In this document: positions 25,156 to 59,567 of the stretch, in pieces
How positions within the stretch are numbered: position 1 is the stretch's first letter
Layout: each line of letters opens with the position of its first letter
Assembly (NCBI RefSeq): GCF_006094435.1
Contig: NZ_CP034783.1
Coordinates: 3,065,001 to 3,129,000, forward strand
Direction of reading: 5' to 3'
From: Pseudomonas sp. MPC6
GTDB taxonomy: Bacteria; Pseudomonadota; Gammaproteobacteria; Pseudomonadales; Pseudomonadaceae
Length of the DNA: 64,000 nucleotides
Made by a program: the position numbers and the translations under genes
Notes under the pieces: generated by a model
Told to the model about the DNA's origin: nothing
Database searches by the model: none
The model's input: the letters and a program-made list of their open reading frames with translations, nothing else

Positions 25156-25169
25156 TTGATCTTTGTCAA
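25156..25169. promoter_or_regulatory. Anr/FNR box TTGATCTTTGTCAA
   Basis: 9 of 10 consensus positions, 107 bp upstream of the usp start at 25050. The same 14-mer recurs at 43148 beside a usp relic. Confidence 0.65.
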
Positions 25170-25234
25170 AGGGAGGAGAAAGGATGGTGTTGCCCGACGC
25201 GCGGTTGTCCGTGCATCGTCCAGTGACGCAATTG

Positions 25235-25248
25235 TTGACCATTATCAA
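25235..25248. promoter_or_regulatory. Anr/FNR box TTGACCATTATCAA
   Basis: 9 of 10 consensus positions, 77 bp before the ATG of the truncated adh at 25325. It is a suitable distance for a class II promoter reading rightwards. Confidence 0.6.
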
Positions 25249-25324
25249 TCTTTCGTCTGGCTCCCCGGAGCAGTCTTTGGACTTGTGCAGAACTTTGGCT
25301 TACATAAGTAAAGGAGGCATCGGC

Positions 25325-25438
25325 ATGGCAACCATGAGAGCGGCGGTTTTCGGTGAAAAGAACCGGATCGTCCTGGAGGACAAACCCGTCCCTGAAGTCG
25401 GACCGCTGGCCGGTGCGGGGCGCAGTTCAAGCAGATGA
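25325..25438 (+). pseudogene. Zinc alcohol dehydrogenase, first 28 codons only
   Basis: A strong ribosome-binding site (AAAGGAGG) and ATG lead into MRAAVFGEKNRIVLEDKPVP followed by EVGPL. This is the N-terminus of an NAD(P)-dependent Zn alcohol dehydrogenase. After VGPL the frame becomes unrelated (AGAGRSSSR) and stops at 25438. The catalytic Zn site and all the rest are deleted; the promoter box and start survive. A 37-aa peptide may still be made. It is a different ADH subfamily from the intact gene at 53682. Confidence 0.75.
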
Positions 25439-25445
25439 CGATCCC

Positions 25446-26684
25446 ATGAACGGAGCCATTGGGCTGACAGGTGCAGCCGCGGCGCTGGGGATTGGCATGC
25501 TCATCGGTCTTGAACGCGAACGGCACATGGGTCAGGGTGAGAGCCGCGCATGTGCCGGTTTGCGGACGTTCGCCATTACGGCGTTGCTGGGTTATGGGGC
25601 GATGCAGGTCGGTGGCGGGTTGCTGGTGGGCATCGTGGCCATCGCTCTGGGATTGCTCGTCACCGTGGCTTATTGGCGAAGCCTGAGCGATGACCCCGGG
25701 GTGACCAGCGAAGTCGCATTGTTGACGGTGTTGGTGCTGGGGGCGTTGTGTGCCACAAACCCCGAGTTGGCGATTGCTGTCGGCGTGGTGATGGCAGGGC
25801 TGCTGGCCTATCGGGAGAAGCTTCACCACTTTGCCCGCAGTCAATTGACTGATGCGGAATTAGGCGACGGCCTCATCCTCCTGACGGCTGCGCTGGTCGT
25901 GTTGCCCTTGGCGCCGGACCGCTTTATTGGCCCCTACGCTGCCATCAATCTGCGCACCATTTGCAGCCTGACGGTATTGCTGATGGCGGTGGGCGCCATT
26001 GGGCATATTGCCGTCCGTACCCTGGGAACCCGTTACGGATATGCCATTAGCGCCATTGCCTCCGGGTTCGCTTCCAGCACAGTGACGATCGCAGCCATGG
26101 GCCATCTCGTCGCCCGGCAGCCCGACAATATCAAGGTCTTGAGCGCGGCTGCGATCCTGTCCAATATGGCTACCGTTACGCAGGTTGGCCTGATCCTGGG
26201 GGCGGTCGACCCCGGTTTGCTGCGCCATATGTGGGGGCCTTTGATGTCAGGAGCCGCCGCCACTGCGTTGTATGGCTTGTGTTTGATGTTTCCCAAGACT
26301 GCAACCGGTGCCAACCAGCCGATCAAGGTTGGCGGTGCGTTCAACCTCAAGCTGGCGCTGATCGTCACACTGATGATGACCGGCATCACCTTTGTTTCGT
26401 CTGTGATGCTCGGCCACTTCGGCCAGGTGGGGGTGATGCTGACGGCCACGTTCAGCGGTTTTGCCGATGCGCACGCCTCTACGGCGTCGATTGCCACGCT
26501 GGCCCAATCCGGCCATTTACCCTTCGATGCCATTGTCGGGCCTGTGCTGATTGCGGTCAGCAGCAACTCCGTCAGCAAATGCGTGGTGGCATGGGTCAGC
26601 GGCGGGCGACGCTTCGCCGCTTACGTGATCCCGGGCCAGGTGTTGTTGACCCTGGCGTTGTGGGCGGGGATGGTGCTGTTCTGA
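25446..26684 (+). CDS. MgtC/SapB-type membrane protein with C-terminal DUF4010-like region
   Basis: 412-aa integral membrane protein. The N-terminus (AAAALGIGMLIGLERERHMG, then RTFAITALLGYGAMQVGGG) is the MgtC/SapB four-helix module; the rest (about residues 150-412) is a further set of spans as in DUF4010 proteins, with SGFASSTVTIAAMGHLVARQ and GFADAHASTASIATLAQSG. ATG at 25446 is 5 bp after the truncated adh. Proteins of this architecture have no settled role; magnesium or envelope homeostasis is often proposed. It may now be driven by the adh promoter with its Anr box. Confidence 0.8.
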   Translation: MNGAIGLTGAAAALGIGMLIGLERERHMGQGESRACAGLRTFAITALLGYGAMQVGGGLLVGIVAIALGLLVTVAYWRSLSDDPGVTSEVALLTVLVLGALCATNPELAIAVGVVMAGLLAYREKLHHFARSQLTDAELGDGLILLTAALVVLPLAPDRFIGPYAAINLRTICSLTVLLMAVGAIGHIAVRTLGTRYGYAISAIASGFASSTVTIAAMGHLVARQPDNIKVLSAAAILSNMATVTQVGLILGAVDPGLLRHMWGPLMSGAAATALYGLCLMFPKTATGANQPIKVGGAFNLKLALIVTLMMTGITFVSSVMLGHFGQVGVMLTATFSGFADAHASTASIATLAQSGHLPFDAIVGPVLIAVSSNSVSKCVVAWVSGGRRFAAYVIPGQVLLTLALWAGMVLF

Positions 26685-26846: not shown

Positions 26847-27410
26847 CTACAGGTTAAGACGATGGATGACCTGATGGCTGTCGTCTGGATCATTGTGCGT
26901 CTCGAATCCTAGCGCCTTGGCCAGGTCGCGCATGGGGGCATTGCTGGACGAGTCCACTGAATACATTTGGTGAAAGCCGTTTTTGCGGGCTGCCTTGATC
27001 AGATGCTCCATCAGTAATGTGCCCAAACCCAGGTGCGTCCATTCATCGGCGACCGTTACGGCACATTCACACTCTTGCTCGCGGGTGGCCGCGTATCGGC
27101 TGACGCCGATCTCGATGAGTTGCCCGTTGTCATGGACCAGGGCGATATAGGCCACGCGTTGCCGGTTATCAGTGTCCATCAATTGCTTGAGCATGCTGTC
27201 GCTGGGCTCGTTGATCTGCGCCAGAAAGCGCATGTGCCGCGACTCGGGGGACAGGCGCTTGATAAACGTGTATTCACGCTCGCGATCTTTTTCCGCCAGC
27301 GGCCGGATCAGCACATGGCGGCCGTCTTTGAGTGCTTCAATCCAGTATTGTCCGGTGACTGCGGCGTAAGCGGCAGCGGCCCGATCATTGTGGTCTTTGA
27401 CGTTGAGCAT
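26847..27410 (-). CDS. GNAT-family acetyltransferase, copy 1
   Basis: 187-aa N-acetyltransferase. Core motifs ITY-like start VLIRPLAEKDREREYTFIKR, mid LSPESRHMRFL, and the acetyl-CoA loop DEWTHLGLGTLLMEHLIKAA (motif A). It resembles the C-terminal GNAT domain of Pat-type protein acetyltransferases, so lysine acetylation of a metabolic enzyme is plausible but unproved. The ATG at 27410 follows GGAGG at the usual spacing; an upstream in-frame ATG at 27425 is less likely. A close paralogue lies at 42309-42872. The promoter has an Anr box (27501) with TAGAAA as -10. Confidence 0.88.
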   Translation of the reverse strand: MLNVKDHNDRAAAAYAAVTGQYWIEALKDGRHVLIRPLAEKDREREYTFIKRLSPESRHMRFLAQINEPSDSMLKQLMDTDNRQRVAYIALVHDNGQLIEIGVSRYAATREQECECAVTVADEWTHLGLGTLLMEHLIKAARKNGFHQMYSVDSSSNAPMRDLAKALGFETHNDPDDSHQVIHRLNL

Positions 27411-27547: not shown

Positions 27548-27561
27548 TTGATGTAAATCAA
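27548..27561. promoter_or_regulatory. Perfect Anr/FNR box TTGATGTAAATCAA
   Basis: 10 of 10 consensus, 71 bp before the usp start at 27632; it forms a divergent control region with the box at 27501. Confidence 0.8.
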
Positions 27562-27631: not shown

Positions 27632-28546
27632 GTGATGGAGCAATATCAACGTTTTCTGCTGATCGCTGACCCAACCCTGCATCAGTCTCCTGCCCAGTTG
27701 CGTGCCGTCGCATTGGCCAAGGCAGCCGGGGCCGTACTGGATGTGCGGGCCTTTGTCGAACCGGTGCCGATGGTTCATTTATGGCAAGAACAAGTCGACG
27801 ATGCAGAGCAGCAGCGCTATTTGCATCGCTACCGCCGCTGGGAGGCCGAAGAGTTCGATCGGCTCAGCGACCTGGGGCTGGAGGTAACGGTCAAAGCCGT
27901 CTTCACCACCCATCCGCTGCTGGACATTTTGAAGACGGTCGAAGATTTGAAGCCCGACCTGTTGATCAAGGATGCAACCCTTGAACCTGTACTCAAGCGG
28001 GTGTTCATTACCCCGCTTGACTGTCACTTGTTGCGTGAATGCCCGATCCCTGTACATCTGGTCAACCAAGCCCCTTACAGCTTGCCGCACCGAATCGTGG
28101 CGGCAGTGGACCCGTTCGATCCGGCAACACAAATCAGCGGTTTGAACGACACCATCATCCAGACCGCCAATGCCCTGGCGCTGCAATGCGACGCGCCATT
28201 ACACCTACTGTACGCCTATGATTTATCGCCTGCCTTCAACAGCGATGCACCTCTGGCCGGGGGCGGTTGGGGTGTGGATTTCAGCGAGGAGCTGCGTCAA
28301 TCCTTGCACCAGGCGTTTATTACACTGGCTGAGCGTTACGGGGTGCCTGCGGAGCGACGGCATTTCGTCATGGGATTACCAGTGCCGGTGATCAGCGAGT
28401 TCGTCGAGCAATACCTGGCCGATGTAGTGGTGATGGGCACCGTGCATCGGGTGGGGATCGACCGGCTGCTCGGCAGCAATACGGAACGGGCGCTGTACTC
28501 TGTGCCGGGCAGCATTCTGGCGGTCAAGTCACGTGTCAGGGCATGA
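27632..28546 (+). CDS. Universal stress protein, tandem Usp domains (Usp 2 of 8)
   Basis: 304-aa double-Usp protein. It starts at GTG 27632 or the ATG two codons on (MEQYQRFLLIADPTLHQSPA). Second domain begins HRIVAAVDPFDPATQ and ends MGTVHRVGIDRLLGSNTERA; the first GxxG of the nucleotide loop reads GTVH, so ATP binding may be lost. Sequence is intermediate between the two Usp groups of the island. Its last codons overlap, on the other strand, a relic of adh. A perfect Anr box lies 71 bp upstream. Confidence 0.9.
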   Translation: MMEQYQRFLLIADPTLHQSPAQLRAVALAKAAGAVLDVRAFVEPVPMVHLWQEQVDDAEQQRYLHRYRRWEAEEFDRLSDLGLEVTVKAVFTTHPLLDILKTVEDLKPDLLIKDATLEPVLKRVFITPLDCHLLRECPIPVHLVNQAPYSLPHRIVAAVDPFDPATQISGLNDTIIQTANALALQCDAPLHLLYAYDLSPAFNSDAPLAGGGWGVDFSEELRQSLHQAFITLAERYGVPAERRHFVMGLPVPVISEFVEQYLADVVVMGTVHRVGIDRLLGSNTERALYSVPGSILAVKSRVRA

Positions 28547-28694: not shown

Positions 28695-29237
28695 TTATTT
28701 GCGCTTCCAGTACTTCTGCATTTCCAGAAACAGGAAGGATGCTGTCCATGTAATGAGCACTAGCCCGGTAAGGGCTTCTAGACCGGTCAAGTATTTCAGG
28801 TTGCCCACAGGTGAAATATCGCCGAAGCCGATCGTCGTGTACGTTGTAAAGGAAAAGTAGACGCAGTCCATCAGCGAACCGTCGAAGTTGCCCGTCAGGC
28901 CGCCCCATTCCCCGGAGTGCACCATCAGGTAATAAACCAGCGCGAAGCACCAGACCTCTATCGCATGTGCGAAAAGGGCGCCAAATACCCCAGCCACGAT
29001 TCTGAAGCGACTCCACAGCTTGAGCCGGGGTAGCCAATCATTCAGGCGTAACAGGCATTCATAGTGGATCACTACGGTGATGATGACCACCAGCGTATTG
29101 ATCAGCGTGACTGCCAGCATGGCAAATCTCCAGCGAAAAGGGAGGCAGCGGATCAGTGTATTTCTACGCCAAGAAGCCGGAAAATCGTTGAGCTGAATCA
29201 ACAAGGGTCTTACTAAACCGAACGTCAGTCGTTCCAT
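28695..29237 (-). CDS. Two-span potassium-channel family protein
   Basis: 180-aa inner-membrane protein of the Ion_trans_2 type. An N-terminal hydrophobic pair (about residues 38-60 and 80-105) precedes the pore loop YFSFTTYTTIGFGDISPVG, with the K+ filter TIGFGD, and a last span TGLVLITWTASFLFLEM. There is no cytoplasmic regulatory (RCK) domain. Its upstream Anr-type box (29258) suggests a role in membrane potential or K+ balance when respiration stops; this is inference. Confidence 0.85.
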   Translation of the reverse strand: MERLTFGLVRPLLIQLNDFPASWRRNTLIRCLPFRWRFAMLAVTLINTLVVIITVVIHYECLLRLNDWLPRLKLWSRFRIVAGVFGALFAHAIEVWCFALVYYLMVHSGEWGGLTGNFDGSLMDCVYFSFTTYTTIGFGDISPVGNLKYLTGLEALTGLVLITWTASFLFLEMQKYWKRK

Positions 29238-29491: not shown

Positions 29492-30397
29492 ATGCTCAAG
29501 CTCAAACGCATTTTATTGATAGCCCCCAGCGAAATGACCCTGACCCCGGCGTTTGCGCGTGCACATGCCTTGGCTTGTGCAACCGGTGCCTTATTGCACA
29601 TTGTCGCGTTCGATTATGTTCAGGTTCTGGCAATAGCCGGTCTGCTGGACCACGATGCGATGTCCCAGGCCCGAGAAGGTTATTTGCAGGTGCACCGTCA
29701 TTGGCTGGAGCAGCAGGCGCGTTTTTACCGATGTGGCGGCATGCAGGTGACCACCGAAGTGGTCTGGGCCAAGTCGAGCCTGAACAACCTGCTTGAGTAC
29801 GTGAATGACTTTCTTCCGGACCTGGTCATCAAGGATACCCATTACGTGCCGGCACTTGACCGTGCCTTTCACCGGCCTCTGGACTGGCGACTGCTGCGCG
29901 AGTGTCCGACTCACCTGCACCTGGTGACCAGTGCCAAAAATCCAAAACCAATGACAATTCTTGCGGCGATCGATCTGTCCCATCTGGAAGAGCTGACGCA
30001 CGGTTTAAATGACCGAATACTCGATCTGGCCTCGACTCTGGCGACCAGCTGCGGTGCCGCGCTGCACTTACTTAATGTCTGTCGTTGGTCACAGATAAGC
30101 GAGGCGCCGATGAGTGTGCCGACAGGCAGTCTTGATGACAGTTTGAGAGACGCCATTGAAGATGCTCAGCAAGAGGCTTTCGATGTGCTTGCTGAACGCT
30201 ATTGCATCAAAAATACACGCCGGCACTCACTGACGGGCATCCCCCACAAGGTCATCGGGCTTTTCGCTCAACAAAATGCCTTCGACATCGTTGTGCTGGG
30301 CACGATTTATCACCATGGGCCTGACCGGTTTATCGGCGATACCGCTGAGGGCGTGTTAAACCGGGCACCGTGCAGTTTGGTGATCGTCAAGCCATAG
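29492..30397 (+). CDS. Universal stress protein, tandem Usp domains (Usp 3 of 8)
   Basis: 301-aa double-Usp protein of group A ([39 protein letters not shown]). The second domain starts MTILAAIDLSHLEE and ends LGTIYHHGPDRFIGDTAEGV, with a degenerate nucleotide loop. ATG at 29492 is chosen because GAGG sits 8 nt upstream and it gives the paralogue N-terminus MLKLKRILLIAPS; the open frame extends further up without homology. Only an imperfect Anr box lies upstream. Confidence 0.88.
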   Translation: MLKLKRILLIAPSEMTLTPAFARAHALACATGALLHIVAFDYVQVLAIAGLLDHDAMSQAREGYLQVHRHWLEQQARFYRCGGMQVTTEVVWAKSSLNNLLEYVNDFLPDLVIKDTHYVPALDRAFHRPLDWRLLRECPTHLHLVTSAKNPKPMTILAAIDLSHLEELTHGLNDRILDLASTLATSCGAALHLLNVCRWSQISEAPMSVPTGSLDDSLRDAIEDAQQEAFDVLAERYCIKNTRRHSLTGIPHKVIGLFAQQNAFDIVVLGTIYHHGPDRFIGDTAEGVLNRAPCSLVIVKP

Positions 30398-30434: not shown

Positions 30435-30448
30435 TTGATAAAAATCAA
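30435..30448. promoter_or_regulatory. Perfect Anr/FNR box TTGATAAAAATCAA
   Basis: 10 of 10 consensus, centred 62 bp before the ATG of the beta-CASP gene. Confidence 0.8.
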
Positions 30449-30503: not shown

Positions 30504-31898
30504 ATGGCCATGCGAATCACATTTCTAGGTGCCGCGGGCACGGTTACGGGCAGCAAGTACTTGCTGGAACATCGCAACCAACATGTACTGATCGATTGCG
30601 GACTGTTCCAGGGCTACAAGCAACTGCGACTGCACAATCGGGACCCGTTCCAGCTTCCGGTCAGCGAACTCGATGCCATTGTCCTGACCCATGCCCATCT
30701 CGACCACAGCGGATACTTGCCCGTATTGGTGCGCAATGGTTATCGCGGCCCGGTGTACGCCACGCCCGCCACCTGTGAGTTGGTGAAAATCCTGCTGTTG
30801 GACAGTGGCCGCTTGCAAGAAGAAGAGGCTGAGTTCGCCAATCGGCACGGCTTCTCAAAGCACAGCCCGGCGTTGCCGCTTTACACTGAACAAGATGCCG
30901 AGCGAGCACTGAAACTGTTGCGGCCGGTGGAGTTGCACCACAAGGTGCAAATCGCCGCGGACATGACCATCCTGCTTCGTGGCGCCGGGCATATTCTGGG
31001 TGCCGCTACGGTGCAGGTGAATGCCGACGGTCTGGCCCTGGTGTTTTCAGGGGATTTGGGGCGGCCGGACGATCCTTTGATGTTCGCTCCAGAACTCGTC
31101 GAGCAGGCGGATTACCTGTTGGTGGAGTCGACCTATGGTGATCGTCAACATCCGAGCGAGGCGCCACAGGCGCAATTGGCCGAGGTCATCACCCGCACGG
31201 CGCTGCGCCGAGGGATTACCCTCGTGCCATCCTTCGCGGTTGGGCGCGCTCAACTGCTGATGTATCACCTGTATCAGTTGAAGCGCAAACGGGCAATTCC
31301 CGATATTCCAATCTACCTCAACAGCCCCATGGCCACCGATGTCACGCTTTTGTACCAGCGTTTTCGCAGCGAGCACAGATTATCGCTGGAGGAGTGCGAA
31401 GGCATGTGCCATGTGGCGCAATTCGTACGCACCGTCGATGACTCGAGAGAACTTGATCAGCAACGCACCCCAGCGGTGATCATAGCTGCCAGCGGCATGG
31501 CGACAGGAGGGCGAGTGGTCCATCACCTCAAGGCACTGGCTCCCAATCCAATTAACACGCTGCTTATGCCTGGCTTCCAGGCCGGTGGCACCCGTGGCGC
31601 GCAAATTGTTGCGGGAGCGCCTTCAGTGCGTATCCATGGCAAAGACGTGCCGATCCGCGCCCAGGTGGTACCGATGCATACACTGTCCGCACACGCCGAC
31701 GCCGATGAAATCATGCAGTGGCTGCGCGGGTTCAAGCAGCCGCCAAAACATACATTTGTCGTCCACGGGGAGCCTAACGCGTCGGATGTGCTGCGCCGAC
31801 GCATCAGCCAGGAGTTGGGGTGGTCGGTTTCGGTGCCGGAGTATCGCGATAGCGTTGAACTTTCCAGCATTGATCTCACGGCAAGCTCATCCAGGTAA
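30504..31898 (+). CDS. Metallo-beta-lactamase/beta-CASP RNA-processing-type hydrolase
   Basis: 464-aa cytoplasmic enzyme of the YSH1/COG1236 group (RNase or RNA exonuclease-like). MBL motif THAHLDHSGYLP (His ligands, about residue 63), the second metal motif GAGHILGAATV, FSGDLGRPDDP, the beta-CASP insert with PSFAVGRAQ, ASGMATGGRVVHHL, and the late His motifs MHTLSAHADADE and VVHGEPNA. Complete. Start: ATG at 30504 or 30510. Perfect Anr box upstream: RNA turnover linked to oxygen loss is likely but the targets are unknown. Confidence 0.9.
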   Translation: MAMRITFLGAAGTVTGSKYLLEHRNQHVLIDCGLFQGYKQLRLHNRDPFQLPVSELDAIVLTHAHLDHSGYLPVLVRNGYRGPVYATPATCELVKILLLDSGRLQEEEAEFANRHGFSKHSPALPLYTEQDAERALKLLRPVELHHKVQIAADMTILLRGAGHILGAATVQVNADGLALVFSGDLGRPDDPLMFAPELVEQADYLLVESTYGDRQHPSEAPQAQLAEVITRTALRRGITLVPSFAVGRAQLLMYHLYQLKRKRAIPDIPIYLNSPMATDVTLLYQRFRSEHRLSLEECEGMCHVAQFVRTVDDSRELDQQRTPAVIIAASGMATGGRVVHHLKALAPNPINTLLMPGFQAGGTRGAQIVAGAPSVRIHGKDVPIRAQVVPMHTLSAHADADEIMQWLRGFKQPPKHTFVVHGEPNASDVLRRRISQELGWSVSVPEYRDSVELSSIDLTASSSR

Positions 31899-31968: not shown

Positions 31969-31982
31969 TTGATCCAGATCAA
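31969..31982. promoter_or_regulatory. Perfect Anr/FNR box TTGATCCAGATCAA
   Basis: 10 of 10 consensus, 38 bp before the ATG at 32020. A short hairpin (CCCAG-N6-CTGGG, 31953-31968) sits right before it. Confidence 0.75.
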
Positions 31983-32019: not shown

Positions 32020-32508
32020 ATGGCGAGAGATCCAGTCATGATAAACAACAAGCTTTTCGGCGGGTATCACGCGGTTCAGGACTGGAGCAGAGTTGCGGTG
32101 CACAGGTACCTGCACTGGACGGGCACAGGTTCCTGGAGGCGGGAGGCGACCATCCTGCTGTCGGTCTTGGTGGCGCTGATGGCCGGATATATCACGGTGT
32201 TTCACTCCGCCTCTCACGCGGTGCAGGACTTGGTAGACACGTGCACAGCGCGTTTAGAGATCGAGCTTGAGAATGCCGATACAGATCCCCTCACAAAAGC
32301 CCTGGCTCGGCCTTTGTGTGAATGTGTGGCACATTCCTTCCTCGACAAAAACGGTATTGTGCGTCTGGCCATGGTCAACATGCGCGTGCTTGATTCGATG
32401 GCTCTTGAGCCCGTGACGGAAAAGGACGAGGAGGCCTGCATCAGCGCCCTGTGGCTGCCCAATGTCGAACTGGCCAAGCGCCTGACCCTTGAAGGAGGGG
32501 GGCGCTAG
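32020..32508 (+). CDS. Hypothetical single-span membrane protein under an Anr box
   Basis: 162-aa protein I do not recognise. Residues 1-40 are basic and aromatic (RVAVHRYLHWTGTGSWRRE). Then comes one membrane span, ATILLSVLVALMAGYITVF (about 42-60), and a periplasmic or cytoplasmic tail with paired cysteines (DTCTAR, LCECVAHSF, EEACISALW). The open frame runs further up but the ATG at 32020 fits the promoter; 32038 is an alternative. Cys spacing might support metal or disulfide chemistry. Its end meets a relic of hsp20 on the other strand. Confidence 0.6.
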   Translation: MARDPVMINNKLFGGYHAVQDWSRVAVHRYLHWTGTGSWRREATILLSVLVALMAGYITVFHSASHAVQDLVDTCTARLEIELENADTDPLTKALARPLCECVAHSFLDKNGIVRLAMVNMRVLDSMALEPVTEKDEEACISALWLPNVELAKRLTLEGGGR

Positions 32509-50236: not shown

Positions 50237-50242
50237 TAGCAG

Positions 50243-51338: not shown

Positions 51339-52706
51339 TTACACGCCAAACGGATAGGTTTCGTCTTCCGGCTCCAGCTGCTGGGTTTTCGGCAGGGGCA
51401 GCGCGGTGACCGGCGTGGTTTGCTCGATCCAGATCATGGCATCGAATTGTTCGGCCAGCATCGACTCGAAGTAGTGACTGAACCGCTCGCTTTCGGGGCG
51501 GTAAATCACTCCGATGGCCCGTTCCAGCAAGGGCGCGGACAGAACGCTGCGCAGCACTTTGCGCTGCGGGTCTCGCCAGTCGGTCAGAGACGCCGCCACC
51601 CCGGCCTTGAGAAACTGATGCTCCCAGCTGTCCGGTCGGGAAGGGCGGACGTCTTTGATCAACATCTCGCCGTCCCAGTCATCGGCGGCAGCGACCTGGC
51701 CTCGGTCGGTGGCCATGCCAATCAGCACGACATCGCGCCCAAGGGCGCTTCGGCACAGTTGACCGATATTGAACTGACCCTTCCAGCCCATTTCCGTGGC
51801 GGCCGCATTGCCGATATGGGAGTTGTGGGCCCAGACCACAGCCTTGGCTTGGGAGCCCCGGTGTTCGAGCAACGCACGCAAGGTATCGAACATGTGCCGA
51901 TCACGCAGGTTCCAGGAAGCCGTCGACCCTCGATAAATCGCCCGGTAATACTGTTCCGCCGCCATCACCACCCGTGCATTCTGCGTCGCATTGAAGAACG
52001 CTTCGTCGTCGCGGATGAGCCCGGCCAATTGTTCAGTCAGCATGGCATTGAGCTGCTCGACCACCGGCTGTTCGCAGGGCATCACACCGCCACGTTCGAC
52101 GAAGTGGCCGTACAGCGCCGGATCATCCTGCCACGGCGTCAAACAGCCATAGCGTCGCCGGGCTTCATGGGCCAGACGCGGGTCGACCCGGTCCAGATAG
52201 CCCAGCACTTCATGAATGGAGTTGCGCAAGCTGTAGACGTCCAGGCCGCGAAACTCGACGCGCTGGTCAGGGACCTGTTGGTGATTGTACTGATGCAGCC
52301 AGTGGGCGAATGCCTTAACCTCGCTGTTGCGCCACATCCAGGTCGGGAAGCGGCTGAAGATGTGGCGCTTCCAGGCTGAATGCGCCACCCCCCGGACATA
52401 CTGGTCGACATGACCGGCGTCCGGCCAGTCGGCTTCCACTGCCACGATATTGAACCCGTGCCGCTCGATCAGCCCCTGGGTGATCGCCGCCCGGGTTCGA
52501 TAGAAATCGCGGGTTCCATGGCTCGCTTCGCCGATCATCACCACACGTGCATCGGCGTAGCGATCGAACAGCTTGGCAAAAGCGGGGGAGTCCAGCTCTG
52601 GCAGGGGTTCAGCGTATTGGCGTAACACTGGGGTTATGTGTGCCGTGTCTACGTGATGTTGCTGGCCGCGGGGCTTATCCGGCCATTTCTGCGAAGGTGA
52701 GTTCAT
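51339..52706 (-). CDS. Erythromycin-esterase family protein
   Basis: 455-aa cytoplasmic protein of the EreA/COG2312 fold. Conserved blocks ARVVMIGEASHGTRDFYRTR (the catalytic-type His and Glu), VAVEADWPDAGHVDQYVRG, KAVVWAHNSHIGNAAATEMG and the C-terminal DAMIWIEQTTPVTALP. Most such proteins in environmental bacteria are not proven to cleave macrolides; some genomes link them to phosphoribosyltransferases, as found here. Start at 52706 (MNSPSQKW) follows GGGGGA. Clear class II Anr promoter upstream. Confidence 0.85.
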   Translation of the reverse strand: MNSPSQKWPDKPRGQQHHVDTAHITPVLRQYAEPLPELDSPAFAKLFDRYADARVVMIGEASHGTRDFYRTRAAITQGLIERHGFNIVAVEADWPDAGHVDQYVRGVAHSAWKRHIFSRFPTWMWRNSEVKAFAHWLHQYNHQQVPDQRVEFRGLDVYSLRNSIHEVLGYLDRVDPRLAHEARRRYGCLTPWQDDPALYGHFVERGGVMPCEQPVVEQLNAMLTEQLAGLIRDDEAFFNATQNARVVMAAEQYYRAIYRGSTASWNLRDRHMFDTLRALLEHRGSQAKAVVWAHNSHIGNAAATEMGWKGQFNIGQLCRSALGRDVVLIGMATDRGQVAAADDWDGEMLIKDVRPSRPDSWEHQFLKAGVAASLTDWRDPQRKVLRSVLSAPLLERAIGVIYRPESERFSHYFESMLAEQFDAMIWIEQTTPVTALPLPKTQQLEPEDETYPFGV

Positions 52707-52873: not shown

Positions 52874-52887
52874 TTGAGATTTATCAA
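52874..52887. promoter_or_regulatory. Class II Anr promoter between esterase and cytochrome c4
   Basis: TTGAGATTTATCAA (9 of 10). On the minus strand TAGAAA (52852-52847) starts 28.5 bp from the centre, serving the esterase. On the plus strand AAGATA (52911) is a possible -10 for the cytochrome gene. Confidence 0.7.
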
Positions 52888-52945: not shown

Positions 52946-53602
52946 ATGAACGTATCCAGCCTGCGGCATATGGATCGGGCACCTCATGTTCTGGCCCTTT
53001 GCCTGGCTACGCTCATGGGTTGTACGGGTACACGCGAAGAGGCGCTCCAGCAAACGTCCACTCTGTCGGGGATCGCCATGGCGGACAGCGTTTGTTCGCT
53101 GTGCCATGGGCTGACGGGGGAGTCTGTCTCGCCCATGTTTCCCAAGTTGGCGGGCCAGCAAAACGAGTATTTGCAGTTGCAACTGACCGATTTCAAAAAC
53201 CATGGACGTAGCGCTGCAACTGACAGCCGGTACATGGGGGGATTGTCCCATTTGACCAAGACTCAGATTGCCGAACTGGCCGACTATTTTGCGAGCCAGC
53301 GAGCCATGCAGGCTGACACCGGGACGCCAGATGCGCGAGGTGAAGTGATCTTTCGCCAGGGCTTGCCTGAGAGGGGCATCCCACCGTGCAGCGCTTGCCA
53401 CGGGAAGGACGGCGGGGGCAATGGGGTGATTCCACGGGTGGCGGGCCAGCATGCCAGCTATATGAGCCATCAGATCATGGTGCTGCAGCAGACCGGGCAA
53501 CGCCCCAACGGTGCTCCGATGTTGCCGGTGGATCATGCACTTTCCCAGGCCGATGCCGAATCCGTCGCCCGATACATGGCGGCACTCGGGACAAAGCAAT
53601 GA
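52946..53602 (+). CDS. Diheme cytochrome c4-type lipoprotein
   Basis: 218-aa exported electron carrier. The N-terminus has a signal with lipobox-like LMGC (about residue 25). Two heme c sites are CSLCH and CSACH with distal Met regions (SPMFPKLAGQQNEYL, GAPMLPVDH), in the two-domain c4 layout. It may deliver electrons to a terminal oxidase with high oxygen affinity; that is suggested only by the Anr box at 52874. Start ATG 52946 follows AGAGG. Confidence 0.87.
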   Translation: MNVSSLRHMDRAPHVLALCLATLMGCTGTREEALQQTSTLSGIAMADSVCSLCHGLTGESVSPMFPKLAGQQNEYLQLQLTDFKNHGRSAATDSRYMGGLSHLTKTQIAELADYFASQRAMQADTGTPDARGEVIFRQGLPERGIPPCSACHGKDGGGNGVIPRVAGQHASYMSHQIMVLQQTGQRPNGAPMLPVDHALSQADAESVARYMAALGTKQ

Positions 53603-53681: not shown

Positions 53682-54668
53682 TCACGGAACAAGCACGATC
53701 GCACCGTTGAACTGACCACTACGCAACAGCGTCAGTGCCTGATTGGCATCGTCAAGGGAAAACTGGGTGGTGTCGCAGTGTACGGGTGTGTGTTGCAGTT
53801 CTTTAAAAAACGCTGTGCCATCGTCGCGGGTCAGATTAGCCACAGATCGTACGCTGCGCTCGCCCCATAGCAGCCGATAAGGAAAGGCCGGGATGTCACT
53901 CATGTGAATGCCGGCGCAAATCACGCAGCCCCCCTTGACCGTGACGGCCAGCGCCAGCGGTACCAGCGCCCCGACCGGAGCGAAAATCAGGCTGGCATCG
54001 AGCAGGTGCGGAGGAGGCTGGTCCGACGAACCGGACCATTTCGCACCCAAGGATCGGGCATATGCCTGTCCTGCTGTGTCATCCGGTCGAGTGAAAGCGT
54101 ACACCTGCTGGCCTCGTCCCCGTGCGACTTGAATGGCCAGATGCGCTGCGGCCCCAAAACCATAAAACCCAAGGTGGTGTGCGCCTTGTGCCATTTGCAA
54201 GGCACGAAAGCCGATCAGCCCGGCACACAGCAACGGTGCGGCCTCGGTATTGGAGAGGGACCCAGGGATAGGAAAACAAAAGCGTTGGTCAGCCACGGTG
54301 TATTCGGCGTAACCACCGTCCAGATGACATCCAGTGAACATGGCCTGATCGCAGAGGTTTTCCCGACCGGTCTGACAGAATGCGCACTGACCACACGTCC
54401 AGCCTAGCCAGGGAACCCCCACCCGCTGGCCGATGCGCCCGGGGTCTGCATGGGTGCCGACCGCCATGACTTCACCGACGATTTCATGCCCCGGCACCCG
54501 GGGCAGCACCGCTTGAGGCAATTCACCGTCCACCAGATGTAAATCGGTACGGCAGACACCGCAGGCCAGGACTTTGATCAATAGTTGATTGGCACTGGGT
54601 GCTGGAATGGGCCGGTCTTCCCGTTGCAGCGGCTGACCGGGTGCGTGTAAAACCATGACGCGCATCAT
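53682..54668 (-). CDS. Zinc-dependent alcohol dehydrogenase
   Basis: 328-aa medium-chain dehydrogenase. Catalytic Zn residues in LACGVCRTDLHLVDGELP and PGHEIVGEV, structural Zn loop CGQCAFCQTGRENLC, nucleotide-binding GFYGFGAAAHLAIQVA (one Gly of GxGxxG changed to Ala). Likely reduces aldehydes or oxidises alcohols with NAD(P). It begins 20 bp after the Anr-like gene and may be co-transcribed with it. A relic of a second copy's C-terminus lies at 28536. Confidence 0.9.
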   Translation of the reverse strand: MMRVMVLHAPGQPLQREDRPIPAPSANQLLIKVLACGVCRTDLHLVDGELPQAVLPRVPGHEIVGEVMAVGTHADPGRIGQRVGVPWLGWTCGQCAFCQTGRENLCDQAMFTGCHLDGGYAEYTVADQRFCFPIPGSLSNTEAAPLLCAGLIGFRALQMAQGAHHLGFYGFGAAAHLAIQVARGRGQQVYAFTRPDDTAGQAYARSLGAKWSGSSDQPPPHLLDASLIFAPVGALVPLALAVTVKGGCVICAGIHMSDIPAFPYRLLWGERSVRSVANLTRDDGTAFFKELQHTPVHCDTTQFSLDDANQALTLLRSGQFNGAIVLVP

Positions 54669-54687
54669 GATGTCCGGTTCACCGGGA

Positions 54688-55434
54688 TCAACAGACAGGA
54701 GGGCGATGGCAGCCGGCAATCAACTGCTTGAGGCCTTCCAGATTAAGGATTTTGACGTCACGGCCTGAAACTTCCACGAGTGCTTGATCCCGCAGATGTG
54801 CGATGCCACGACAAATGGTTTCCAGGCGCAGTCCCAGGTAGGAGCCGATTTCCTCACGGCGCATTTTCAACACGAAATCCGTCGATGAATATCCACGGAT
54901 ATTCAAGCGTTGCGACAGATTCAGTAAAAAGGCTGCCAGACGCTCGTCCGAGTTCATGTTGCCCAGCATCATCAGCATGTCGTGATCGCGGACGATTTCG
55001 CGGCTGAGAATCTTGTTCAGATTGTGCTGCAGGGACGGCAGCTCATGGGCAAGTTCTTCCAGGTGAGCAAAGTGGATGGGGCAGACCTCGCTATCTTCAA
55101 GGGCAATCGCATTGCACGCATGTAGGTCCGTGCTAATAGCGTCAAGGCCGAGCATTTCACCAGGAATCTGAAAGCCAGTGACCTGCTCGCGACCATCGAC
55201 CGAAAGGACGCTGGTCTTGAAGGAACCGATTCGCACCGCATAAAGCGAGCGCAACGGATCGCCTGCACGGTAAAGCGTCGCGCCTTTTTTGACCTTGAAG
55301 CGCTGCACTATCAACGTGTCCAGACGCTCGACTTCCTGGCCGGTCATGCCGATGGGCAGGCATAACTCCATCACACTGCAGCTTGAGCACGCAGCCTTCA
55401 GGTAATGGGGTTGCAGAGAGCGGACTTCTGGCAT
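54688..55434 (-). CDS. Anr/FNR-type oxygen-sensing transcription regulator, paralogue
   Basis: 248-aa CRP/FNR protein. The N-terminal cluster motif CSSCSVMELC (Cys16, 19, 25) plus Cys118 (SEVCPIHF) give the four ligands of the oxygen-labile [4Fe-4S] centre. Cyclic-nucleotide-fold region to about 130, dimer helix, then helix-turn-helix REEIGSYLGLRLETICRGIA. The FNR/Anr reading triad E-xx-S-R is here E205-xx-C208-R209. Start at 55434 gives Anr length (244 in P. aeruginosa as I remember); the open frame extends upstream without homology. It probably controls the ~20 boxes in this island, alone or with the core Anr. Confidence 0.9.
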   Translation of the reverse strand: MPEVRSLQPHYLKAACSSCSVMELCLPIGMTGQEVERLDTLIVQRFKVKKGATLYRAGDPLRSLYAVRIGSFKTSVLSVDGREQVTGFQIPGEMLGLDAISTDLHACNAIALEDSEVCPIHFAHLEELAHELPSLQHNLNKILSREIVRDHDMLMMLGNMNSDERLAAFLLNLSQRLNIRGYSSTDFVLKMRREEIGSYLGLRLETICRGIAHLRDQALVEVSGRDVKILNLEGLKQLIAGCHRPPVC

Positions 55435-55574: not shown

Positions 55575-55588
55575 TTGATGTAAATCCA
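55575..55588. promoter_or_regulatory. Anr-like box TTGATGTAAATCCA
   Basis: 9 of 10 consensus, about 140 bp before the regulator start at 55434. Possible autoregulation. Confidence 0.4.
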
Positions 55589-55670
55589 CCATTGGCGTGG
55601 GGGCTTCGTACTTTTCGGCAGTGTGAAGAAGGGAAGTTCCGCACCATTGGTATTGATAAAGCAGGGTGAT

Positions 55671-55684
55671 TTGATATTTATCAA
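55671..55684. promoter_or_regulatory. Perfect Anr/FNR box TTGATATTTATCAA
   Basis: 10 of 10 consensus, 125 bp before the usp at 55809; also faces the regulator gene. Confidence 0.8.
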
Positions 55685-55808: not shown

Positions 55809-56696
55809 GTGAGCCAGTATCAACGGTTGTTACTCATCACCCACCTCGCCCTGCGCCATTCTCCGGCGATCGACCATGCAGCTGCGCTGGCCAGGGCCAG
55901 TGGTGCCAAGTTGCATATCACAGCGTTGATTCCTTCGTTCAAACTGTTGTCACTGCTCGAAGAAGGCGATCGGGAAACAGCTCGGGAGCGTTACCTGCAG
56001 GACCATCGCGACTGGTTGAAGGACCAGGCCAGAAAACTCCATGACAGAGGGATCGAGGTGACCACCACGTTGGCTTGGGCTGACGACATGGAGCAAGACA
56101 TCCTCGATCACGTCAGGGAATTGCAGCCCAACTTGTTGATCAAGGAAATCCAACACGACTCATCACTCAAACGCGCGTTCTTCACTCCGCTGGACTGGCA
56201 CTTGCTGCGCCACTGTCCGATACCGGTTTATCTGGTGGGCGGAGTTCGTCATGCCTCGCCGCGCAAGGTCGTGGCGGCGGTTGATGCGTCGGCGGGCGAC
56301 TCTGAAAACAAAGAATTGAATGACCATATCGTCCAACAGGCTTCCAGTCTCGCGGTCCAGTGTGATGCCCAATTGCATTTGCTTTATGCCTATGACATTT
56401 CGCAAGACTATCTGGAGGAACTGGGCGGTGGCTTGAAACTGTCGGAGCTGACCAAATGGCGGCGCAAAAAGTTGGAGGAATGGTTCCTGAAGCTCGCCGG
56501 CCGGTACGGTGTTCCCGCTGACCGTAGGCATTTCGTACTAGGGCATCCTGTTACGGCGCTGAGCGAGTTCGCCAACAAGCATCACGTGGATGTGATCGTG
56601 ATGGGCCGGGTCCAAGACCACGGCCTGGTCAAGCTTCTGGGCAGCACGACTGAACATATCCTGTACCAGGTGCCTTGCAGCGTTCTGGCAGTCTAG
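55809..56696 (+). CDS. Universal stress protein, tandem Usp domains (Usp 8 of 8)
   Basis: 295-aa group-B double-Usp protein starting with GTG (MSQYQRLLLITHLALRHSPA). Domain 2 starts RKVVAAVDASAGDSE and ends MGRVQDHGLVKLLGSTTEHI, LYQVPCSVLAV. It lies beside the Anr-like regulator, transcribed away from it, with a perfect Anr box between. Confidence 0.91.
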   Translation: MSQYQRLLLITHLALRHSPAIDHAAALARASGAKLHITALIPSFKLLSLLEEGDRETARERYLQDHRDWLKDQARKLHDRGIEVTTTLAWADDMEQDILDHVRELQPNLLIKEIQHDSSLKRAFFTPLDWHLLRHCPIPVYLVGGVRHASPRKVVAAVDASAGDSENKELNDHIVQQASSLAVQCDAQLHLLYAYDISQDYLEELGGGLKLSELTKWRRKKLEEWFLKLAGRYGVPADRRHFVLGHPVTALSEFANKHHVDVIVMGRVQDHGLVKLLGSTTEHILYQVPCSVLAV

Positions 56697-56770
56697 AGCG
56701 GACTTCTCTTGTCGGTTGGTGATTGATAATGGTCTTTCTACAATAGTTGGTGTGGTAGTGAGGATTTGAT

Positions 56771-57229
56771 ATGAACGTCTTGCTTAATGAACTGCACGCT
56801 TATCATCATGAGGTTGCTACCAAAATTACTCAGATCAAAGGATTGGTGGGTAGGGTGAGGCATGAATCTGCTGGTGCCGATGACTTCAAGCAGTTGTTCA
56901 AGATGCTGGAAGCCTTGCATGGTGATGCAGAGCGACGCCATCATGAAAATGAAGAGCTTATTCGGCGGGCCTTGCTAGCGACTGAAGCCCCGATCCACCA
57001 ACGGGTCAAGGATATCGAGCGAGATCATCTGGCATTTGAGCGTATTGCTGGACAGCTCAAGATGTTGGAGGACTCGACTCAGGAGGGGAGAGTGATCGCT
57101 GACACTATCGATGACTTCATCAGGAAATACTACGATCATATGGAAGCTGAGGAGAGTATTTTCTTTCCGATGGCTGATAAGTGGCTATCAGACATCCAGT
57201 GGGAGGAAACAAAGCGTCAATGGCATTAA
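56771..57229 (+). CDS. Hemerythrin HHE-domain protein
   Basis: 152-aa four-helix protein with diiron-type ligands: ELHAYHHEVA, EALHGDAERRHHENEEL, DIERDHLAFERIAG and DHMEAEESIFFPMAD. Such proteins bind or sense O2, NO or iron. Base composition is less GC-rich than neighbours (many AT codons), hinting at separate origin. A similar HHE domain is fused to the P-type ATPase 3 kb away. Confidence 0.87.
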   Translation: MNVLLNELHAYHHEVATKITQIKGLVGRVRHESAGADDFKQLFKMLEALHGDAERRHHENEELIRRALLATEAPIHQRVKDIERDHLAFERIAGQLKMLEDSTQEGRVIADTIDDFIRKYYDHMEAEESIFFPMADKWLSDIQWEETKRQWH

Positions 57230-57327: not shown

Positions 57328-57340
57328 GGCAGCCTGAGAA

Positions 57341-57883
57341 TCAGTCGCCTTTGATTGGCACGACTTTATCCGCTTTCATGGCTTCGGGCTTTTTCGGCAG
57401 CGAGATGCTCAGCACGCCCTTGCTGAAACTCGCGTCGATCTTCTCGGCATCGACACCCTTGGGCAAGTTGAACACCCGCTCGAAGGAGCCGTAGTGACGC
57501 TCGCTGAGGTGATAGCCCTTCCTTTTTTCTTCCTTGTCCTCTTTCTTTTCGCCCTTGATGATCAGGCTGCCGTTGGACAGTTTGATCTCAATGTTTTTCT
57601 GATCCATGCCAGGCAGTTCAGCCGTGATTTCGAAGCTATTGTCTTTCTCGGTGATGTCCACGGCAGGCAGGCTGTGGCCGATCAGTTCCCGTCGCCAGAG
57701 CGGCTCGACATCGAACAGCCCGCGACCGAATGGCGACAGCCCCGAGCCGCGATTGAAGTCTTCGAACAGGTGATCAACCTGCTGCCGGAGTTTTTCCAGG
57801 GGTCGCCAAAGGTCTGTTGCCACCGGATGCTGACTGGCTTTGTCGTCGCTATGAACCGGCACTTTTTTTTCGTTGTTGCTCAT
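57341..57883 (-). CDS. Small heat-shock protein Hsp20
   Basis: 180-aa holdase chaperone. Alpha-crystallin domain about residues 68-165: LPAVDITEKDNSFEITAELP, GMDQKNIEIKLSNGSLIIKG, and ASFSKGVLSISLPKK carrying the I/L-x-I/L tail contact. N-terminal part is polar with RPLEKLRQQVDHLFEDF. ATG at 57883. No Anr box seen before it. A C-terminal relic of a second copy follows ackA (32505). Confidence 0.92.
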   Translation of the reverse strand: MSNNEKKVPVHSDDKASQHPVATDLWRPLEKLRQQVDHLFEDFNRGSGLSPFGRGLFDVEPLWRRELIGHSLPAVDITEKDNSFEITAELPGMDQKNIEIKLSNGSLIIKGEKKEDKEEKRKGYHLSERHYGSFERVFNLPKGVDAEKIDASFSKGVLSISLPKKPEAMKADKVVPIKGD

Positions 57884-57971
57884 TTTGATTTCTCCTCTTG
57901 GGTGATAGAGATGGATCGCAAACACCCGCTTGGCGGTCCACCACGACAGAACAAACACGCGGCGCTGGCCC

Positions 57972-59462
57972 TTACAAAGCCAGTGTCCCGGACCACAGCA
58001 TCCAGCCGGCGAAGGCTGCCGCCGTCCAGATAATGATCAGCAGTCCCGTCTCGGGGCCGCTGAGCGGTTGCCCCTGACGAGCCTTCATGGTGGCCAGGTA
58101 AATCAATGAACCCGGGGCGTATAGCAAAGCGCTGAGCAACATGTATTTAGGCCCGGCCGCATACAGCAGCCACAGGCAATACAGCGTGGCGACCGAGGCG
58201 ATGGCCATGTCGCGTAGTTGCAGGGCACGGTGGCCGGCATAGGTCTGGCCCTGCCACGTCAGTTTCAGGGCATACAGACCGCTGAACAGGTACGGCAGCA
58301 GAATCATCGAGGTGGCCAGGGAGATCAACGCGAGGTAGCTGGCGCTCGAATACAGGGTCAGCAACAGGAACAGTTGAATGCAGCCGTTGGTGATCCACAG
58401 CGCGTTGGCCGGCGCCCCTTGCCTGTTTTCCACGGCAAGCGCGCCCGGCATGACCTTCTCCCTGGCCGGTGTGAACACCGATTCCGCCGCCAGCAGCGTC
58501 CAGGCGAGCAGGGCGCCACCCACCGAAATAATCAAGCCGAGGCTGATCAGCACCGCGCCCCATGGCCCGGTGGCAGCCTGAAGCACGCCGGCCATCGAAG
58601 GGTTTTTCAGGGCGGCCAGTTCAGGTTGTGTGAGAATGCCCAGTGAGAGCAATGACACTGCAATCAACAGCAACAGGGTGATGACAAAGCCGATGACCGT
58701 GGCGCGGCCGACATTGGCCCGCTCCGCCGCGCGGGCGGAGAACACGTTGGCGCCCTCGATCCCGATGAACACCCAAACGGTGACCAGCATGGTGCTTTTG
58801 ACTTGGTCGAGGGTGCTGCCCAGCGCGGGCGAGCCCCAGAAATCGACACTGAAGGTTTCACGCTGGAAGGCTGTGATCACCAGGCCGATGAATAAAAGCA
58901 ACGGCACGATCTTGGCCACCGTCGTCAACGCGTTGGCACGCGCTGCCGTGTGCATGCCCCTGAGAATCATCCAGTGCAATGACCATAGCACCACGGACGC
59001 ACCGGCAATCGCCGCTTTGTTGTTGCCTTCGCCGAACAGGGGGAAGAAATAACTCAGCGCGGCGAACAAAATCACCAGGTAGCTGACGTTGCCGATCCAG
59101 GCGCTGATCCAATAGCCCCAAGCTGAATTGAAGCTGAGGTACTCGCCACCCAGGGCGCGGGCGTAGGCGAACACGCCGTTGTCCAGCGCCGGCTGGCGGT
59201 TGGACAAGGTCTGATACACCAGTGCCAGCGACAGCATGCCGACACCGGTGATCAGCCAGCCAATCAGGATCGCCCCGGCCCCCGCACTGGCCGCCATGTT
59301 CTGCGGCAGGCTGAAAATGCCGCTGCCGATCATCGAACCGATCACCAGGGCAATCAGCAGGCTCAAGGACAGGCGCTTGGGTTCCACCTTTCGCAAACTG
59401 CCTGCAAGTGGGTGGGCAGTCGGCGGGAGTACCGGTTGGGTGCCTTGCAGGTGCGTAGCCAT
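57972..59462 (-). CDS. APC-family amino-acid antiporter, ArcD-like
   Basis: 496-aa inner-membrane transporter with about 12-13 spans. The consensus first helix GSMIGSGIFSLPQNMAASAG and WGYWISAWIGNVSYLVILF match basic amino-acid/polyamine antiporters such as arginine-ornithine ArcD. In Pseudomonas ArcD feeds the arginine deiminase pathway, an anaerobic ATP source; no arcABC is adjacent, so substrate is unproved. ATG at 59462 gives MATHLQGTQP. Anr box 59554 lies 92 bp upstream. Confidence 0.85.
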   Translation of the reverse strand: MATHLQGTQPVLPPTAHPLAGSLRKVEPKRLSLSLLIALVIGSMIGSGIFSLPQNMAASAGAGAILIGWLITGVGMLSLALVYQTLSNRQPALDNGVFAYARALGGEYLSFNSAWGYWISAWIGNVSYLVILFAALSYFFPLFGEGNNKAAIAGASVVLWSLHWMILRGMHTAARANALTTVAKIVPLLLFIGLVITAFQRETFSVDFWGSPALGSTLDQVKSTMLVTVWVFIGIEGANVFSARAAERANVGRATVIGFVITLLLLIAVSLLSLGILTQPELAALKNPSMAGVLQAATGPWGAVLISLGLIISVGGALLAWTLLAAESVFTPAREKVMPGALAVENRQGAPANALWITNGCIQLFLLLTLYSSASYLALISLATSMILLPYLFSGLYALKLTWQGQTYAGHRALQLRDMAIASVATLYCLWLLYAAGPKYMLLSALLYAPGSLIYLATMKARQGQPLSGPETGLLIIIWTAAAFAGWMLWSGTLAL

Positions 59463-59553
59463 GGGAGCCTCCACGAAACGAGAGTTTCTGCACTCATCGA
59501 ATGCGATGGTGCGAATGCTGACTCTAATTTCTGCGTGAACGTCCAACGCCTGG

Positions 59554-59567
59554 TTGATTTAGATCAG
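59554..59567. promoter_or_regulatory. Anr/FNR box TTGATTTAGATCAG
   Basis: 9 of 10 consensus, between the divergent antiporter (start 59462) and P-type ATPase (start 59744) genes. Confidence 0.65.

Follow-up and report, generated by a model that had tools for sequence, protein, structure and literature searches.

The DNA analysed here, called the window throughout, is a stretch of 64,000 nucleotides from Pseudomonas sp. MPC6 (bases 3,065,001-3,129,000 of C4, a 6.84-Mb contig in a genome of 7,221,214 bases). The region of about 38 kb between 24.1 and 62.0 kb of the window is best read, with a probability of roughly 0.78, as a regulon of the FNR/Anr type whose members sit together, forming an island for survival at low oxygen like the low-oxygen-activated (lxa) locus of Burkholderia cenocepacia. 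This reading is drawn from the sequence and its comparison with relatives.

According to this proposal, a fall in oxygen would lead FNR-class activators with an intact [4Fe-4S] cluster, namely Anr and a PP_3287-like paralogue embedded in the island, to bind boxes of the FNR type. Each box would serve one transcription unit or a divergent pair, and 22 predicted units would be switched on, with products that would keep a respiring cell alive while it does not grow. Phosphoketolase (Xfp), phosphotransacetylase (Pta) and acetate kinase (AckA) would turn sugar phosphates into ATP and acetate; universal stress proteins (Usp), Hsp20 and FtsH would protect proteins; and a beta-CASP nuclease, together with phosphoribosyl pyrophosphate (PRPP) and phosphoribosyl enzymes, would serve RNA turnover and base salvage.

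FNR boxes are concentrated in the island

Boxes were counted as matches to TTGAT-N4-ATCAA, either exact or with at most one or two mismatches. All seven perfect boxes listed in an earlier note on this DNA were found again (27548, 30435, 31969, 35423, 39656, 39735 and 55671), and between 25156 and 59567 there are 18 predicted boxes with at most one mismatch (7 exact and 11 with one mismatch). Over the whole window, 76 sites have at most two mismatches, versus a mean of 21.1 and a maximum of 34 in 100 dinucleotide shuffles. The same note had seen no boxes in the first 24 kb, which is true of exact boxes (zero in 1-24000) but not of one-mismatch sites, five of which lie there. Genome-wide, 34 exact boxes and 386 with at most one mismatch were counted, while a reversed-pattern control gives 2 and 33; selection for the box therefore seems to act across the entire genome. 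One fifth of its perfect boxes (7/34) are in the island. Whereas 0.16 exact boxes and 1.84 with at most one mismatch are expected in 34,412 bases, 7 and 18 are observed; the corresponding Poisson P values for 25156-59567, about 5e-10 and 2e-12, are a rough guide only, given that the interval was picked after the sites had been seen. Since the genome total is only 34, exact boxes are enriched about 43-fold in these 34.4 kb.

At 12 bits or more, a 20-position matrix built from relatives alone, with the window excluded, finds 22 sites in 25101-59700 (20 of them intergenic) but a single one in positions 1-24000. Nine further 10-20-kb stretches of the same genome have 1-5 each, and several of these had been picked because an FNR gene or a perfect box lies in them. 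The richest of the nine (L022, 5 sites in 20 kb) carries a nosR-like gene (Pfam) and hemN-like open reading frames (ORFs) recognized by eye. By matrix scan and genome comparison alike, the island is clearly denser in boxes than the rest of the genome, as the earlier note had supposed. Lowering the threshold to 9 bits yields 21 intergenic island sites (25.1-59.7 kb) and 4 within genes. Elsewhere in the genome, a perfect box stands just upstream of genes of known FNR-target type: the hemN beside anr, an anaerobic nrdD and a nosR-like gene.

For comparison, 49 related stretches (1,200,759 bases) were used, of which 28 come from Pseudomonas genomes and 21 from named records of the genus; since they were selected by the presence of phosphoketolase or of the FNR paralogue, near-duplicates may be among them. 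In all, they contain 119 exact boxes, versus 0-2 for each of 19 permuted motif halves of the same letters. The only point in favour of the boxes having arisen by chance or from AT-rich composition is the higher A and T content of intergenic DNA; the permuted halves and the shuffles above refute that explanation, to which we attach practically no weight.

Promoter layout and conservation of the boxes

Genes between 24.1 and 62.0 kb were called by a codon-usage script (33 called, 2 dropped as spurious, 31 kept) and named from Pfam and NCBIfam, and operons were inferred from spacing and strand only. The result is 22 transcription units, 20 of which form ten divergent pairs. Every one of the 22 has a box at most about 355 bp from its first start codon; in 16 of them the box is 55-150 bp off, given the FNR start at 55434 and counting a weak 9.1-bit site before gnat2. 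Site 26703, one of the 21 intergenic sites, lies between convergent genes and is no promoter site. Where boxes are 55-110 bp from a start, a weak -10-like signal appears 21-26 bases past the box (A in 58% at base 22 and T in 63% at base 26; n=146, orthologues not being independent), about the spacing at which a class II FNR promoter would put its -10.

The boxes, TTGATNNNNATCAA in form, stand in promoters and are kept in relatives, as expected of an FNR/ANR regulon. When boxes no more than 350 bp away and with one mismatch at most are counted, and the window is taken as one row per family, a box is found upstream of usp1 in 29/29 cases, gnat1 in 25/29, usp2 in 21/25, usp5 in 22/26, xfp in 32/43, FNR in 29/47, the beta-CASP gene in 18/25, hyp in 7/7, APC in 9/10 and PATP in 10/11. 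With permuted halves, the mean is at most 0.6 in every family. Box-start distances cluster within several families despite changing neighbours, which is what one would expect of working promoter sites: 79-83 bp in 15 of 22 usp2 sites, 64-69 bp in 18 of 23 beta-CASP sites, 76-79 bp in 20 of 34 xfp sites, 136-146 bp in 20 of 28 gnat1 sites, and 180-183 bp in 5 of 11 PATP sites.

The embedded FNR protein and its class

An FNR gene lies inside the island (54688-55434, minus strand; 248 residues, with the start inferred at 55434). Its product keeps four Fe-S cysteines, 16, 19, 25 and 118, which bears out the claim that the island has an Fe-S regulator of its own. They align at a constant offset of 4 with the cysteines at residues 20, 23, 29 and 122 of E. 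coli FNR. Against NCBIfam PRK11161 the island FNR scores 217.2 bits (cut-off 228, with a query sequence 21 residues short). Its identity is 42% with the Anr of this genome, whose gene adjoins hemN, but 82% with another member of its class, encoded at C4:3408622. The earlier note had gone further and proposed a self-contained regulon under its own regulator. A compact FNR-box regulon with an embedded Fe-S FNR is indeed supported, but since the genome also encodes Anr and, elsewhere, this further member of the class, control of the island may not be self-contained.

The second copy (C4:3408622-3409293; L141:10613-11356) has a CSKCT motif and is located outside the island; an integrase match at C4:3415526 lies about 6 kb from it. 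The 20-kb stretch round it has 7 one-mismatch boxes, versus a shuffle mean of 0.9 and a largest shuffle value of 3.

At the Ser212 position of the recognition helix, all 48 island-class proteins with a script-found helix have Cys, the window's included (Cys208), and so has the protein of genome G100, judged by eye; core Anr and PP_3233-like copies have Ser. In excerpts of a Pseudomonas putida study (PMC4505428), Cys for Ser212 and Arg24 are reported for PP_3287, and Ala22 for PP_3233. The window FNR therefore carries the Cys-for-Ser212 mark of PP_3287, but differs from it in having Ser rather than Arg at position 24, beside the second Fe-S cysteine, where five P. putida-like copies and G155 have Arg; it is 51-53% identical to PP_3287-like copies. 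It also has Ser where E. coli FNR has Asp22, and the D22G change is said in the same excerpts to favour aerobic activity of E. coli FNR. According to them, PP_3233 and PP_3287 are slower than ANR to react with O2, and all three P. putida proteins bind the standard FNR site, a preliminary result; the Conclusions leave open whether their regulons are distinct but overlapping and why a cell should have several FNRs, and the targets of the PP_3287 class are likewise left open (PMC4505428).

The PP_3287 signature (CxxCR with Cys212) was found near usp and beta-CASP genes in five genomes (G057, G193, G145, G103 and G081), and in the first three of these the PP_3233 signature (CLACS) occurs in the same 20-kb stretch as the PP_3287-like copy; both kinds of copy are assigned by the reported signatures. 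In stretch L048, the first three cysteines of the island-class FNR are spaced one residue closer.

Linkage of the FNR class to phosphoketolase

In a survey of 199 Pseudomonas genomes, including that of MPC6, a phosphoketolase match was found in 50, of which 35 were kept (near full-length, at least 57% identity) and 15 at 25-32% were dropped; three of the 35 matches read through stop codons (G141, G069 and G051). Island-class FNR, defined by a cut-off of at least 198 bits that lies above all core Anr matches (identity 47-100%), is present in 43 of the 199. By manually compiled lists, it occurs in 30 of the 35 genomes with a phosphoketolase relative versus 13 of the 164 without one. The two genes share a contig in 25 of these 30 genomes, lying less than 20 kb apart in 23 and less than 1 kb in 8; the other five are draft genomes in which they are on separate contigs. 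Among named Pseudomonas loci, FNR is within the 10-kb flanks in 17 of 21. Phosphoketolase as such does not bring boxes with it: exact boxes are absent from two xfp-ackA loci of Pseudomonas, L049 and L074, and from 48 of 59 non-Pseudomonas phosphoketolase loci (of 80 named), 41 of the 59 having an ackA match and 1 a usp match.

One or more of three FNR proteins would act on the island. The embedded paralogue may be a dedicated island regulator with an oxygen range other than Anr's, such that the island would be on in micro-oxia while Anr runs the respiratory genes. Its co-location and co-occurrence with the phosphoketolase island speak for this, as do the Cys212 of its class, the slower reaction of the two P. 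putida paralogues with O2, and the Ser at the Asp22 position, where D22G promotes aerobic activity (PMC4505428, in excerpt). Nevertheless, the box core is the standard one, the preliminary binding result has all three P. putida proteins on the standard site, and the second class copy is located outside the island in the same genome, so we place this explanation slightly below an even chance.

Alternatively, core Anr alone might control the island, with the paralogue as one target among many and in a minor role. The boxes are standard, Anr was found in 29 of 29 genomes searched, and the hemN beside anr carries a perfect box. The strong link between the paralogue class and the island is unfavourable to this alternative, and sampled genomes without the paralogue hold about half the exact boxes: a median of 11 in 25 genomes (of 156), versus 22 in 19 with the paralogue (MPC6 and 18 others, of 43). 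Genome G023, with Xfp but no paralogue, has 7 exact boxes and was excluded from the with-paralogue group. Control by Anr alone is plausible, at odds clearly short of even.

A third possibility, which we consider improbable, is that most of the boxes serve Dnr, the nitric oxide regulator, so that denitrification and not oxygen would govern the island. The boxes of Dnr resemble those of Anr, and a CRP/FNR protein at C4:3792750 (29% identity), about 15 kb from the boxed nosR-like gene, may be Dnr. Dnr is not known to have Fe-S ligands, whereas the embedded protein keeps all four.

Several observations weigh against the reading of the island as an FNR/Anr-type low-oxygen regulon. The nearest box is more than 200 bp from the start for prs, eryEst, usp3, mgtC and pta, and a hexamer scan found good -10 hexamers nearly absent at the expected place. 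In the relatives, an own box is mostly missing for ionch (6/25), ftsH (4/16), adh (4/26), PRT1 (4/14), DLH (1/10), prs (1/5), eryEst (5/11) and hsp20 (8/19); operon position may explain part of this. The conservation counts overstate the statistical weight, since related genomes are not independent, and the box sets of Anr, Dnr and the paralogue are not told apart in this analysis. Finally, two island-class FNR proteins that keep the Cys212 helix have lost ligands: all four Fe-S ligands are replaced in G100 (L152), and the second cysteine is Phe in G184 (L146). Oxygen sensing by the class may thus not be universal, these two proteins being possible oxygen-blind versions.

Gene order, mobility and descent

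The earlier note had also suggested a transferable module. Patchy distribution, reshuffled gene order and a few gene-tree conflicts give this modest support, while the lack of a tRNA and of a nearby tyrosine integrase, and clades with agreeing trees, speak against it. Between 2 and 7 of the window's 30 neighbour pairs recur in each of 29 relatives, whose own stretches show 5-17. Distances of island genes correlate at Spearman 0.65-0.89 among themselves versus 0.45-0.63 against the core anr stretch. The FNR and Xfp trees join this genome with G131 (100/99 and 100/100), a pair that the hemN-anr tree rejects (approximately unbiased test, p-AU 0.021; the pair was picked after the trees had been seen); G066 and G182 pair in the FNR and Xfp trees but not in the hemN-anr tree; and G061 combines an Xfp of the 58% class with an FNR of the 78% class. 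The clades G114+G183 and G173+G124, on the other hand, are the same in all three trees. A pairing of G000 with G183 in the FastTree core tree (0.80) was rejected by the trimmed core tree (p-AU 0.0008).

A mobile genomic island that moved between species as one block is an unlikely account of these data. It would agree with the patchy occurrence of a near full-length Xfp relative (35/199), with the tree conflicts and with the mixed classes of G061. Against it, gene order is not kept, two clades agree in all three trees, no tRNA was found in the window, and the nearest match to the tyrosine-integrase family PF00589, the only recombinase family searched for, is about 290 kb away on C4. Nor is there a sharp change of composition at both ends: GC content is 0.53-0.62 in the island and 0.53-0.61 on its left side, falling to 0.46 only to the right of it. 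We read the history of the island as piecemeal exchange and rearrangement over mostly vertical descent, not as block transfer.

Plasmid-borne relatives were also considered and were rejected as evidence for transfer by plasmid. The FtsH neighbourhoods of Paracoccus and Cupriavidus plasmids do not contain the island, the FNR of pHG1 neighbours nitrate reductase, and no FNR match on plasmids reaches 60% identity. An operon on Acidovorax and Variovorax plasmids belongs to another cluster. It is found on plasmid p1-T1 of Acidovorax sp. T1 (L194) and plasmid 3 of Variovorax sp. WDL1 (L195), both typed mobilizable, and consists of beta-CASP (57-60% identical), thymidine phosphorylase and PRPP synthetase genes, with pentose-phosphate or acetate kinase genes in the vicinity.

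We tentatively put forward, as a proposal rather less probable than not, that the low-oxygen island is a cassette regulon: each unit would have its own FNR-box promoter, units would be reshuffled and exchanged singly between Pseudomonas species, and a Cys212-class FNR less oxygen-sensitive than Anr would travel along and set a separate micro-oxic threshold. If true, the targets so far lacking for proteins of the PP_3287 type would thereby be found. The island is in any case a concrete candidate home regulon for one FNR class, with about twenty boxes beside the gene and kept in relatives. The rearranged versions form a natural series that differs in gene content, in the variant of the regulator and in where the boxes lie. 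The island might also serve as a marker by which to predict whether bacteria regarded as strict aerobes survive anoxia.

Comparison with known low-oxygen systems

The lxa locus of B. cenocepacia was reportedly described by Sass et al. in 2013, a work we know through later papers, and is said to lie around BCAM0276-BCAM0319. Excerpts of such papers present it as a 50-gene cluster with six Usp that is up-regulated when oxygen is scarce and required for persistence in anoxia; its proteins are also raised in late cystic fibrosis isolates and include an Hsp20-type protein, a phosphate acetyl/butyryl transferase, a Zn alcohol dehydrogenase, a metallo-beta-lactamase (MBL) and a cytochrome c (PMC6127331, PMC9733578). 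Some strains, for example H111, lack lxa (PMC3759415, PMC9104464, in excerpt). The island resembles lxa in having tens of genes with several Usp (31 genes, eight Usp), and Usp, Hsp20, Pta, Zn alcohol dehydrogenase, beta-CASP/MBL and cytochrome c are all in the window, matched by protein names as given in the excerpt of PMC6127331. It differs in its phosphoketolase, its eight Usp and its gene order; moreover, the regulator discussed for J2315 (BCAM0049) is, by its number, outside lxa.

Gene order was compared with an lxa-like stretch of B. stagnalis (L193) and is not the same, and it varies even within Pseudomonas. Because of this difference, the island is said to work like lxa rather than to be a strict member. 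The B. stagnalis stretch has P-ATPase, FtsH, PfkB, Usp, beta-CASP, Pta and AckA genes, an FNR whose cysteines are all in place, and part of an Hsp20 match, as well as 3 exact boxes and 15 with at most one mismatch, versus 0-1 for permuted halves. Since it has both boxes and an FNR, an embedded regulator is not unique to Pseudomonas. The B. stagnalis FNR, 47% identical to that of the window, differs from it in that residue 212 is Ser; beside its gene, at 26.4-30.2 kb of L193, are a CHASE-PAS histidine kinase and a LuxR-type response regulator. In a B. cenocepacia stretch round an FNR gene, no other island gene was found.

Likenesses to the island were also seen outside these genera. An island-like set in Rhodanobacter sp. 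T12-5 (L063) comprises xfp, ackA, pta, adh, hsp20 and a phosphoribosyltransferase gene, and Dyella nitratireducens (L060) has a smaller set with xfp and ackA; each has 3 exact boxes, and the FNR-like proteins of both are without the cysteine motif. FNR-type control of stress genes is also a feature of the micro-oxic FixK2/FnrP regulons of Alphaproteobacteria. The DosR dormancy regulon of mycobacteria has a regulator and boxes unlike those of the island. It resembles the island in being rich in Usp, in its alpha-crystallin and in its connection with hypoxia, a comparison already drawn for lxa (PMC6127331, in excerpt).

Given that the island works like the Burkholderia lxa locus by content and boxes, its kind is already known. 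A search of the open-licence literature, which does not show absence from print, found no description of such a Pseudomonas island or of its link to the PP_3287 class; it may be in these two respects that the present description is new.

Gene content of the island

The functions named in the earlier note agree with the Pfam matches: eight Usp, phosphoketolase, acetate kinase, phosphotransacetylase, a phosphoenolpyruvate (PEP)-synthase-like protein, FtsH and Hsp20, and, for RNA turnover, PRPP metabolism and electron transfer, the beta-CASP nuclease, a PRPP synthase-like protein, two phosphoribosyltransferases and cytochrome c, besides hemerythrin and FNR. Unless stated otherwise, the genes below were assigned by Pfam (Usp for the usp genes), and perfect boxes were found by motif and matrix.

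The left end is usp1 (24130-25050, minus strand), with boxes 112 and 191 bp upstream. Two one-mismatch boxes, 25156 and 25235 (25156-25248; matrix/motif scan), separate it from mgtC, encoding an MgtC/DUF4010 membrane protein (25446-26684, plus). The GNAT acetyltransferase gene gnat1 (26847-27410, minus) is divergent from usp2 (27635-28546, plus), with a perfect box (27548-27561) and a weaker second site at 27501 between them. A two-transmembrane ion channel gene (28695-29120, minus; Pfam and matrix) has boxes 29188 and 29258 in common with usp3 (29492-30397, plus). The gene for the MBL beta-CASP RNA-specificity nuclease (30510-31898, plus; Beta-Casp and RMMBL) is preceded by a perfect box (30435-30448), as is ORF 32098-32508 (hyp; box 31969-31982), for which the Pfam scan gave no match.

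An inferred operon of pta, encoding a MaoC-Pta fusion, and ackA (32592-35227, minus; Pfam and NCBIfam PRK08190) is separated by a perfect box (35423-35436) from ppsA, which encodes a PEP synthase/PPDK-like protein (35521-37659, plus). Two perfect boxes, 39656 and 39735 (39656-39748), lie between the PRPP synthetase-like gene prs (38343-39308, minus; Pfam and TIGR01251) and an inferred operon of usp4, phosphoribosyltransferase 1 and a hydrolase-like ORF (39835-42137, plus; Pfam/NCBIfam). A second GNAT gene, gnat2 (42309-42872, minus), and FNR-type boxes 43148 and 43252 (43148-43265; matrix) precede the inferred operon of usp5, phosphoketolase (44311-46707) and usp6 (43335-47601, plus). The phosphoketolase is 97% identical to a P. 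moorei protein, the next best named loci all being from Pseudomonas.

Phosphoribosyltransferase 2 (PRT2) and an FtsH paralogue form an inferred operon (47626-50142, minus), with two boxes, 50223 and 50243 (50223-50256; matrix), between PRT2 and usp7 (50374-51264, plus). Next are the gene for an erythromycin-esterase-family protein, eryEst (51339-52628, minus), a box (52874-52887; matrix) and a gene for a cytochrome c-like protein with two c-type matches (52946-53602, plus). The Zn alcohol dehydrogenase gene (53682-54719, minus; Pfam and TIGR02822) is in an inferred operon with FNR; boxes 55575 (one mismatch) and 55671 (perfect; 55575-55684, motif and matrix) separate FNR from the inferred operon of usp8 and hemerythrin (55809-57229, plus). 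An APC permease and Hsp20 form another inferred operon (57341-59462, minus), preceded by a box (59554-59567; motif and matrix), and the right end of the island is a P-type metal ATPase gene (PATP; 59744-62026, plus; Pfam/NCBIfam) with a box upstream.

Neighbouring regions

An Rfam scan of the window at gathering scores gave zero matches. To the right of the island, in the low-GC part at 62-64 kb, a glycosyltransferase gene adjoins it. The left flank (17.7-23.4 kb of the window) has genes for a Rieske/molybdopterin oxidoreductase, presumably arsenite-oxidase-like, an ArsP_1 permease and a DUF6691 protein (Pfam). Farther out, 15 kb left of the window, a perfect box at C4:3049921 (L011) lies between divergent genes for a cation P-type ATPase and NhaA, possible further members of the regulon.

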